Part shown: positions 57,943 to 61,150 of the stretch, piece by piece
How positions within the stretch are numbered: the first letter of the stretch is position 1
Layout: the number at the start of each line of letters is the position of its first letter
Assembly (NCBI GenBank): GCA_028689065.1
Contig: JAQTWX010000004.1
Coordinates: 1-61,782 of the forward strand
Direction of reading: 5' to 3'
Source: Candidatus Altimarinota bacterium
Lineage (GTDB): Bacteria; Patescibacteriota; Gracilibacteria; BD1-5; UBA2023
Length of the DNA: 61,782 nucleotides
The notes under the pieces: model-generated
Database searches by the model: none
The model's input: only the letters and a program-made list of their open reading frames with translations
What the model was told of the DNA's origin: nothing
Made by a program: the position numbers and the translations under genes

Positions 57943-59100
57943 TTACTCTTCCATTTTCTTTCTCTCACAGCGTACTCTCCACCAATTCGATACAGGTATC
58001 TCTATATATGTATAACTGAGCCAAGAGAGTGAAAATCCGCCAATAAATGTTCCGATGGCAAGTAAAATCCAGTCGGGCATAAGAAGGTCGTGTTGTCCAT
58101 TGAAAATGAAACGAGTCATAAGAACCATGACGACCGCATGCCAGAGATAAACAGAATAAGAAAGTCGAGCGATAGTATGAAAAACATGATTATCGAGCCA
58201 CTTATGAATGTATTTTGTACCAGGTGAGAGAAATACAAGAAGAACGATGAGAGTGGTTGCAAAAGGAAACCGGTGTGCTCCATGAAGCCAGGTGTATTCA
58301 AAATCTCCGGCTTCTCGAATACACCAAAGAAATAATACTAGCCCAATAGCTGTAAAAATAAAAAATATATCTTGCCAAAGAGATTCTGAGTGAGCTTTTT
58401 TTTCTCTCCATACGAGAATTCCCGCGATAATTGCCCCCATGAGAAAATGAAGTCCAAATATAAAGGGGTTGAAATACGGGAACCATTCACTCATAATTCC
58501 TTCTATTTTTGGAAATGGAAGAGTTATAAACCAGAGATGGAGTCCTGCAAGGATTCAGGCAGTTGCAAGAATAACCCCCGGGATAAAGATTTTTCGCACG
58601 CGAATAATTATGCTCATCATTCCCATAATGAGAATCGCTCCCATCATATCGAAGGATATATACCAAAGAGGTCCGTTTATATCCACGGGAAAGAAGGTGA
58701 ATGGATGAATCCAGGCAAGAAAACTCGCACCGGACAAGAGTCGTATAAATGCCCCATCCTGGTACCCGTTTAGAAATATCGCGAGGAAAAATGTAAAAAC
58801 GAGAGCAAAATAATAGGCAGGAGCGATTCGAAAAAATCGACTTACAAAGAGTGCTCGGGCTTTTGGTATAGCCATATCTCGGATAATAGCTCGCCAAAAA
58901 GGAAGAGAATTAGTGATGGCGGAAAGGATAAAAAAGAGACTCACATTTACTGGCCAAGTTTCGACGAATTGGTACAAATCCCAGTTCCAGAGTGCGAGAT
59001 CCGTAACAGAACGATGTTGATTTAGATGATATATAATAACACTCAAACAAGCGAGTGCTCGGAGTCCATTAAAACCCGGAAGTGGGCGAGCTTGGGACAT
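57943..59100 (-). CDS. acyltransferase family 3 (OafA-like) membrane protein
   Basis: 385 residues. Starts PLPGFNGLRALACLSVIIYH, the hallmark N terminus with the conserved Arg and His; then RFFRIAPAYYFALVF and LWYISFDM; about ten membrane segments and the ending YTYIEIPVSNWW typical of the family. A TGA-Gly at 58555-58557 joins the two halves. These enzymes move acyl groups, often acetyl, onto sugars or wall polymers. It lies 36 bases upstream of the amidase-SpoIID gene on the same strand. Confidence 0.9.
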
Positions 59101-59218
59101 AAATTTTGATGAGTTTTTAAGATAAATAAAAGGAATACTATACTTGTTGTGAATATATGGAAATAAAAAACAAATACAAGGGGATTTTTAAAGATTTAAT
59201 CAACGTCCCTAAAAAGTT

Positions 59219-59246
59219 TTGACAAAGGCTAGGAAAATAATATAAA
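59219..59246 (+). promoter_or_regulatory. promoter of the aroG leader
   Basis: TTGACA (59219-59224), 16 bases, TATAAA (59241-59246); expected start near 59252, about 22 bases before the leader peptide ATG. Confidence 0.65.
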
Positions 59247-59273
59247 TACCTTGTTAGTCTAATAAAAATTCTT

Positions 59274-59351
59274 ATGAATCTTCATTGCCAAAATTTCTTC
59301 TTTTTCTTCTTTCGAAATGAATCGAAGGGTTTATTTTTGGCGTGAAACTAA
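59274..59351 (+). CDS. phenylalanine-rich leader peptide of aroG
   Basis: 25-residue peptide: after MNLHCQN come six consecutive Phe codons (59295-59312), then RNESKG, LFLA, a TGA-Gly, Asn and stop TAA at 59349. Long runs of the regulated amino acid are the hallmark of attenuator leader peptides. Placement after a promoter and directly before an antiterminator/terminator pair supports this. Too short for typical gene finding. Ribosome stalling at the Phe run when Phe-tRNA is scarce would set the RNA fold. Confidence 0.82.
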
Positions 59352-59400
59352 TTTCAAATCAAAAACAAGTCCTTCGGTCAATCGAAGGATTTTTATTTTT
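59310..59400 (+). promoter_or_regulatory. phenylalanine attenuator of aroG
   Basis: Segment 1 TTCGA (59311-59315) pairs with segment 2 TCGAA (59322-59326). Segment 2 CGAAGG (59323-59328) can instead pair with segment 3 CCTTCG (59371-59376). Segment 3 can also pair with segment 4 CGAAGGA (59383-59389) as TCCTTCG-GTCAAT-CGAAGGA plus T-run, an intrinsic terminator ending at 59400. Segment 1 overlaps the last Phe codon, so a ribosome stalled on the Phe run blocks 1:2, allows 2:3 and prevents termination, whereas with enough Phe the ribosome covers segment 2 and 3:4 forms. Confidence 0.82.
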
Positions 59401-59414
59401 CTATCTTTTCTACT

Positions 59415-60434
59415 ATGTGAGCAACAATCAAAGGAAAACTTATCGAAAGTGATAATCTCAAGAATATCTATCCACTTACTTCGACTATGAAACATGATAT
59501 AATGCTCGCTCGAAAAAATATCGAGGATATTCTCAGGGGTCAAAGTAATCGAAAGATTCTTATAATCGGACCATGTTCTGCTGATTTTGAATCATCTCTC
59601 ATGGAATATGCAGAGTTTCTAAGTGAGATACGCAATCGTGTCCGAGATAAAATAGAGATAGTTATGCGATTTTATACCGGAAAACCTCGAACTATCGGTG
59701 GATGGAAGGGATTACAGAATGCGCAACCATGACAGGATGCAGATATAAATGAAGGACTCAAGGAGAGTCGTCGCCTCGCTCTTCGGCTTCTCGAACTCGG
59801 TATTCCACTTGCTGATGAGATGCTTCATCCACAACTCTCTCAACACTTCGATGATATATTTTCCTATCTTGCGGTCGGAGCTCGAAGTACCGAAAATCAG
59901 TATCATAGGGAAGTTGCTTCTGGACTCGATATCCCTGTGGGAATGAAGAATCCAAGTTCCGGAAGTGTATCTATTATGACAGATTCTATCAAGGCAGCGC
60001 AAACGTCGAGTCACTATTCTATCGGAGATATGCTTTTTGACAGTATTGGAAATGCTTATGCTCACGGAATACTTCGCGGAGGGTCAGATGGCCCAAATTA
60101 TCATGCAAAAAATATTCGAGAATATATAGGAAAGATGAATGGTATAGAAAATCCTGCACTGATCGTAGATTGTAATCATGCAAATTCTGGAAAGGATCCA
60201 TTGAAACAAATCGATGTTATTTGAAAGCTTTACAGAGATATTCTCCCTTCGCTTGATAGACAGTGAATTGATGCTCGAAATCTTATAAAAGGATTTATGG
60301 TGGAGAGTTATCTCTATGATGGACGTCAGGATTGGTCGGAGACTATTCAGAAAGGAAAATCTCTTACTGATGCATGTATAGGAAAAAAATGAACAGAAGA
60401 ACTTATTATGAAATTATATGAGAGTATAAAATAA
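59415..60434 (+). CDS. aroG: 3-deoxy-D-arabino-heptulosonate-7-phosphate synthase (type I)
   Basis: 339 residues; codon 2 is TGA-Gly. Patterns: KILIIGPCSADF, MRFYTGKPRTIGGWKGLQ, LADEMLHPQ, VGARSTENQYHREVASGLD, PVGMKNPSSGS, ILRGGSDGPNYH, DCNHANSGKDPLKQ and GFMVESYLYDGRQ, all of the AroF/G/H type. It joins PEP and erythrose-4-phosphate at the start of the shikimate pathway. No other shikimate gene is nearby in the window. Controlled by the Phe attenuator, consistent with Phe-sensitive DAHP synthase control elsewhere. Confidence 0.96.
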
Positions 60435-60437
60435 TAT

Positions 60438-60468
60438 AAAAACCAGCTTTGTGAGAGCTGATTTTTAT
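60438..60468. terminator. terminator between aroG and the YgjP-like gene
   Basis: AAAAACCAGCT-TTGTGAG-AGCTGATTTTT with T-run; also serves the convergent gene. Confidence 0.75.
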
Positions 60469-60478
60469 ATTGATTTTT

Positions 60479-61150
60479 TTAAAATTTTGGAATCTCATAT
60501 CTCCATCCTTCTTCTCGCAAGTGTGTACGGTGTGCTTTCCAGTCTGGAACAATTGATTCTACAAGTCACCAGAAATGGGATGAGTGATTTTTATGGATAG
60601 TATGAGCAAGTTCGTGCACGACGACGTAGTCGATGACCTCTCTCGGTGCCATAAGGAGTCTCCAGGGGAAGTTGAGATTATTCCGACCACTGCACGATCC
60701 CCATCGAGTCGTGGCACTGGTGATGCGAATTTGTTTAAATGAAAATCCGTGTTTCTCTGAAAAATAAGTAACTCGCTCATTCATATGCTTCTGTGCTTGC
60801 TTCCGGTACCACCCAGTGAGTATTTTTTGTTCCGCGGAAACCTCCTGTACTTTTCCCGAGAAAATGAAGATTCATTCGGATTGCAGAACGGTTTCCTTTT
60901 GGAGGAGATTATATTCGAATGAATATACTTGTCCGAGATAATAGAGAGTAGTACCCTTCTGTTCTTTCCGCTCCGTATGTCGAGCAAGATACTTCTCTAT
61001 CCAGTCAGTTTTTCGCTCGACAAAGGCATGGATGATATCGAGAGGAACCGAAAAAGGAGCTCGAACAACGAGTCCTTTTTTTTGTGAAATTTGAAGCGAG
61101 AGAGATCGACGTGATGCTCGTATGATCTCGAAAGGAGGAATTTTGGACAT
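60479..61150 (-). CDS. YgjP-like (DUF45/M48-related) metallopeptidase
   Basis: 223 residues with two TGA-Gly codons. N-terminal half with RASRRSLSLQISQKKGLVVR and VERKTDWIEKYL, then TRWGSCSGRNNLNFPWRLL and the zinc motif VVVHELAHTIHKNHSSHFW (HExxH plus a third His), the pattern of the YgjP/WLM family. Soluble. Convergent with aroG and divergent from the last gene. Confidence 0.9.

Follow-up and report, generated by a model that had tools for sequence, protein, structure and literature searches.

A probable ribosome-mediated phenylalanine attenuator ahead of aroG, and related aromatic leaders, in Gracilibacteria

Introduction

Phenylalanine-sensing leaders of pheA (pheL) and pheST are well known in Gammaproteobacteria. 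Attenuators for phenylalanine and for the pheST operon have been described in the gamma-proteobacteria, alongside trp attenuators in Actinobacteria (PMC1262725), and to the Proteobacteria and Actinobacteria, the only groups with leader-peptide systems of which it was aware, one study added the Firmicutes (PMC2965389). How Patescibacteria regulate their genes has been little explored (PMC11665869). The leader considered here precedes aroG in the window, by which we mean the whole 61,782-nt stretch of DNA that was analysed.

The locus can be compared with four described systems. With the pheL and pheST leaders it shares a Phe-rich leader peptide, competing antiterminator and terminator structures, and the predicted control of Phe biosynthesis or of PheRS; it differs in its target (aroG), its phylum and its uninterrupted run, and nothing points to common descent. 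The actinobacterial trp attenuators likewise have three mutually complementary segments conserved across species (PMC1262725), but the amino acid, the phylum and the sequence of the triple are different. In the Firmicutes hisS/hisZ leaders a codon-run peptide precedes an aminoacyl-tRNA-synthetase paralogue (PMC2965389), as it does before the second pheS genes described below, although with His codons there and Phe codons here. Finally, the Salmonella mgtCBR tandem attenuators are reported to have two leader ORFs per leader region (PMC3641672), and so do three loci in this study (L003, L234, L240); the difference is that every ORF here has aromatic codons and a terminator of its own.

A search of Rfam with positions 58900-60600 gave no family above threshold, and no T-box match at E values up to 10. 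The best match by E-value was RF01859, Phe_leader (26.9 bits, E 0.075), and since the gathering score of that family is 55, the window leader is not filed there, although it would work like a Phe leader. The first-pass annotation knew of no such control in code-25 Patescibacteria; nor did the literature searched, with most subscription journals and all preprints outside its reach, contain an earlier account of leader-peptide attenuation in Gracilibacteria. The mechanism itself is classical. What is new is the phylum, an apparent aromatic attenuator regulon and the tandem attenuators, a complete, conserved and codon-matched set that appears in a reduced lineage with an altered genetic code.

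Results

The aroG leader of the window

The elements of the leader and its gene are as follows.

59219-59224 and 59241-59246, plus strand: promoter, TTGACA and TATAAA separated by a 16-nt spacer, 11 of 12 consensus matches
59274-59351, plus strand: leader peptide ORF of 25 codons, MNLHCQNFFFFFFRNESKGLFLAGN*; the TGA at 59346-59348 is Gly in code 25
59295-59312, plus strand: regulatory run, six Phe codons (TTC TTC TTT TTC TTC TTT)
59308-59315, plus strand: segment 1, overlapping the last two Phe codons and pairing with 59322-59329 in the constrained fold
59322-59340, plus strand: segment 2 (UCGAAGGGUUUAUUUUUGG), whose partner is segment 3 (about 59359-59376)
59359-59376, plus strand: segment 3, containing the 5′ arm of the terminator (59367-59376)
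59383-59392, plus strand: segment 4, the 3′ arm of the terminator
59367-59402, plus strand: intrinsic terminator, a 10-pair hairpin (59367-59392, -12.0 kcal/mol) followed by a U tract
59415-60434, plus strand: aroG, class I (AroFGH-type) DAHP synthase, 339 aa (PF00793, TIGR00034)

The first-pass annotation had placed a promoter and a terminator ahead of a DAHP synthase gene, with a leader of 25 codons between them that includes six Phe codons in a row, and had segment 1 reach into the last Phe codon; all of these are present where it placed them. The promoter's score of 11/12 is attained in about 1% of shuffles; the promoter does not appear in the list from a generic scan because that scan demands a T at the final -10 position. 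The folding of the leader region is more stable than that of 200 out of 200 dinucleotide shuffles (z -3.56), and the gap from the terminator to the start of aroG is 12 nt. In all frames of both strands of the 61.8-kb window, the leader run is the only place with at least five consecutive TTY codons.

The assignment of the downstream gene is clear. Its product matches Pfam PF00793 with an E value of 1.7e-46 (158.8 bits), passes the cut-off of the TIGR00034 aroFGH equivalog (287 bits against 173.2) and aligns with solved DAHP synthases over most of its length.

Competition between the pairings

The effect of a ribosome on the window leader was modelled by constrained folds in which its footprint was blocked codon by codon. 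With the footprint on any of Phe1 to Phe6, the probability of the 2:3 pairing is 0.90-1.00; with the footprint at the stop codon, the probability of 3:4 is 0.86, and with no ribosome at all it is only 0.27. This behaviour depends on the spacer, for when the spacer is shuffled in the stalled state the mean P(3:4) is 0.92 compared with 0.00 for the real sequence, and none of 100 shuffles gave a value as low.

A second comparison concerned 30 leaders, in which the region after each run was paired with the terminator 5′ arm of its own leader or of mismatched leaders, one representative being taken from each of 19 sequence groups for the statistic. The mean segment-2/segment-3 duplex of the 19 distinct leaders is -11.4 kcal/mol for own partners versus -8.2 for mismatched ones, and the own mean was reached in 0 of 20,000 permutations (p = 5e-5). 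The pairing of segments 2 and 3 is thus specific to each leader and is kept across diverged sequences. Three mutually exclusive pairings had been claimed at first, and two of them, 2:3 and 3:4, are borne out by the competing folds and by the cross-leader specificity. The remaining one, 1:2, is the least supported element of the attenuator: its hairpin (59308-59315/59322-59329) does form in the constrained fold of the window, but taken alone it is no better than shuffled sequence (p 0.3), and across relatives p is below 0.05 in 10 of 30 leaders.

The geometry is similar throughout the 30 leaders, with segment 2 starting 4-22 nt past the run and the leader stop codon lying close to or downstream of the segment 2 start in every one. 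Switching goes in the expected direction in 29 of the 30, a count to be read with the reservation that several leaders move only slightly and that the model itself partly imposes that direction. Real spacers, compared with shuffled ones over all leaders, favour antitermination overall (Wilcoxon p 1e-4). Little switching is predicted at equilibrium for the g22 set and for the tyrA leaders of L234 and L240, and these leaders would therefore require kinetic folding or another arrangement. Thermodynamic switching alone was set aside as a general proof, since several leaders barely shift.

aroG leaders in the same order

In the order to which the window genome belongs, aroG is present in 24 of 77 genomes, and 16 of these have an aromatic-run leader ahead of aroG or its operon. 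A recognised leader is missing in seven others, and in the eighth, G037, the contig ends at the locus. The closest relative (77% identity) has kept the promoter, the Phe run (MNLMRQYSFFFFFRA*), the terminator and the antiterminator. Its TAA stop codon lies just upstream of segment 2, where the window has GAA, which is why the window ORF extends to 59351. Loss of the Phe run or of the alternative pairings in close relatives would have refuted the original proposal, but both are retained in this relative, and aromatic-run leaders persist in the wider set of 16.

In one genome (G019, locus L003) two complete attenuators, MLTIIQKQYFFYFFFQTFEGLFCGV and MITLNKKLYFFFYYFYFRTRGKFFYCLC, stand in tandem before aroG, at 1164-1297 and 1313-1460 of the reverse complement; the second of them has more Tyr than the first.

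Several properties are common to the leaders as a group. Within 75 nt upstream, the motif TTGAC precedes 24 of 31 leaders (all genes), compared with about one expected from shuffles, and the spacing in these leaders is mostly that of the window's 16-nt spacer. The commonest triple of segments is GAAGGR / TCCTTC / GARGGA. Codons inside the runs comprise 128 for Phe, 52 for Tyr, 2 for Trp and 3 others; because changes within the runs retain aromatic residues, the leader peptide is probably read by the ribosome.

A separate observation concerns four loci of one genus (L093, L098, L100, L102), whose near-identical leaders are followed by aroG genes of two types. The AroG of L093 is 34% identical to the enzyme of the L005 type, and those of L098, L100 and L102 are 65-68% identical to it, so that the enzyme seems, from these sequences, to have been replaced behind a retained leader.

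Leaders before other genes

A pattern free of any codon requirement, built from segments 2, 3 and 4 only (GAAGGR-N25-55-TCCTTC-N4-20-GARGGA), was searched in 76 genomes and gave 22 matches, versus 7 in the reversed control. It recovered the window leader and that of G017, and in addition leaders not seen previously: a Tyr-run leader (MVNFATKYYYYYLS) before prephenate dehydrogenase (tyrA), a Phe-run leader (MQTIQKQFFFSFFFRKFEGLFLV) before a second pheS, Tyr/Phe-run leaders (MQNLRKQSYYYYFFR and MNISQNSSYFYYFFR) before a class I/II aminotransferase, and a leader (MHMIQNIVHQNYYFWFCFFQRRRIIFDV*) before two genes of no known family. Among relatives of the tyrA locus, tandem Tyr-rich leaders occur in G033 and G030 (L234, L240) and a Phe leader in G049, and two more second-pheS genes have Phe leaders. 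As judged from their sequences, the leader codons fit the amino acid of the downstream gene's pathway, given the Tyr run at tyrA, the Phe run at the second pheS and the Tyr/Phe runs at the aminotransferase.

Around prephenate dehydratase (PDT) and chorismate synthase (38 loci) there is one leader only, before an aroC-PDT operon, which indicates that Phe leaders are not a general property of such AT-rich DNA. At 30 loci of housekeeping pheS, including that of the window genome, no convincing leader was found, three weak matches being of the chance type.

The second PheRS-like protein is encoded at L194, L257, L260, L262 and L264; three genomes have a Phe leader ahead of its gene, and in two more the gene adjoins aroG or sits in an aro cluster. 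In L194 the protein consists of tRNA-synt_2d with FDX-ACB. An ordinary pheS is also present in nearly all genomes.

Leaders beyond the order, and the role of UGA

Seventeen aroG loci of class members with the standard code were examined, and most have no leader. Apparent aromatic leaders do, however, precede aroG in L290, where the sequence MMYNTFFFWFFPYFYTK was identified by eye, and in L292 (MITRNLLFGTFFFSFYYFDR), both from organisms in which UGA is not reassigned, and L291 and L293 hold weaker candidates. On the strength of L290 and L292, attenuation of aroG is probably not confined to code 25. Outside the phylum, the 79 closest AroG loci, mostly from Bacteroidales and Clostridia, gave four weak leader matches only, so the leader probably did not arrive together with the gene from those lineages.

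The leader peptide had also been said to use UGA as Gly. That is correct under code 25, but it is unnecessary for the switch in the window: with the footprint on the UGA the terminator is already favoured (P 0.98), and the reassignment is therefore probably incidental according to the model. The situation may be different in the g22 leaders, where UGA is the codon immediately following the Phe run and lies 17 nt upstream of segment 2. Judging from this spacing, a ribosome halted at the UGA might miss segment 2, so that reading the codon as Gly may matter; the equilibrium model does not discriminate an effect of UGA in these leaders.

Discussion

We propose, with a probability of roughly 0.9, that aroG in the window is under ribosome-mediated transcription attenuation, with charged tRNA-Phe as the signal. 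In this mechanism, a ribosome would translate the 25-codon peptide while RNA polymerase transcribes the leader. When Phe is plentiful, the ribosome would clear the six Phe codons, reach the region of the stop codon and cover segment 2; the 3:4 terminator would then form and transcription would halt before aroG. When Phe is scarce, the ribosome would stall on the Phe run, segment 2 would pair with segment 3, and aroG would be transcribed in the absence of a terminator.

The proposal of the first-pass annotation is thus upheld by the leaders of relatives, by the match of codons to genes and by the specificity of the pairing. These, together with the elements themselves and the computed competition between folds, are direct properties of the sequences, from which we infer ribosome stalling, termination and a response to Phe in cells. 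Counting against an attenuator are the non-significant 1:2 hairpin of the window, the slight switching predicted in several relatives, the aroG genomes that have no recognised leader, and the missing pathway discussed below.

There are three other possible scenarios. The first is that the Phe-run leader is indeed translated, but that control is exerted mainly on translation or mRNA stability, through reinitiation or coupling, with the terminator acting as a constitutive damper. The leader stop codon is just 63 nt from the start of aroG, and short leader ORFs have been proposed to boost downstream translation via reinitiation (PMC4833913). Nevertheless, nearly every leader is separated from its gene by a terminator with a U tract, and segment 2 shows a specific match to the terminator arm, for which a translation-only model has no need. 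We consider this scenario improbable.

Still less credible is a second scenario, in which the pyrimidine run and hairpins form an RNA that binds a protein or metabolite, such as a PyrR-like site or a riboswitch, and the ORF is incidental. Rfam does list PyrR at 26.9 bits, which is far under its cut-off of 54, but there is no match to a riboswitch or T-box family. In addition, almost all substitutions in the runs lead to Tyr or Trp codons, not to other codons rich in pyrimidines, the ORF keeps its ATG and stop, and Tyr runs precede tyrA. The third scenario, a chance AT-rich pyrimidine stretch next to an ordinary terminator, has a negligible probability: runs of five TTY codons are no more frequent in the genome than in the reversed control (17 overlapping matches versus 19), but the aroG site alone combines the run with a leader ORF and a terminator, the gene upstream is on the opposite strand, and promoter, leader and pairings are conserved in divergent relatives.

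If the attenuator reading is correct, transcription and translation in these cells would be coupled tightly enough for attenuation to work, and the leaders would be sensors, readable from sequence, of the amino acids that run short there.

A puzzle is presented by the retention of a Phe-controlled first enzyme when most of the pathway is missing. In the window genome (G000, 96% complete) there is no match to AroB (DHQ synthase), shikimate dehydrogenase or AroC (chorismate synthase), nor to PDT or to the tyrA family found in relatives. AroB and AroC are both missing from 17 of the 23 aroG genomes in which the two were looked for, and from 12 of the 16 with a leader. An individual absence could be due to a very divergent enzyme or a gap in the assembly, but such causes fit the shared pattern less easily. 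Across the order, genomes retain the last steps of Phe synthesis far more often than the middle ones, PDT being present in 45 of 76 genomes versus 8 for chorismate synthase.

One tentative explanation, which we consider rather unlikely as a whole, is that aroG, tyrA, the second PheRS-like gene, the aminotransferase and a LysE-type exporter form an aromatic regulon in which the orphan DAHP synthase either feeds DAHP to a partner cell or draws on that cell's later intermediates. A sensor of starvation would thereby be linked to metabolic exchange, and under the same doubtful reading this would extend to many of these reduced Gracilibacteria, the window genome included. The exporter gene is found in L104, just downstream of aroG, where it is preceded by a second Phe leader (MKPTTKISFFFFFFFINLKNEFLC*) and a terminator (2558-2680 of the reverse complement); induction of an exporter under Phe starvation would be an odd pairing.

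Finally, we note that small genes without a Pfam family follow aromatic leaders in L005 (818-1090), L180 (1596-1997) and L094 (1106-1441), and that the products of those in L005 and L180 have, by eye, a similar Gly-rich C-terminal stretch.
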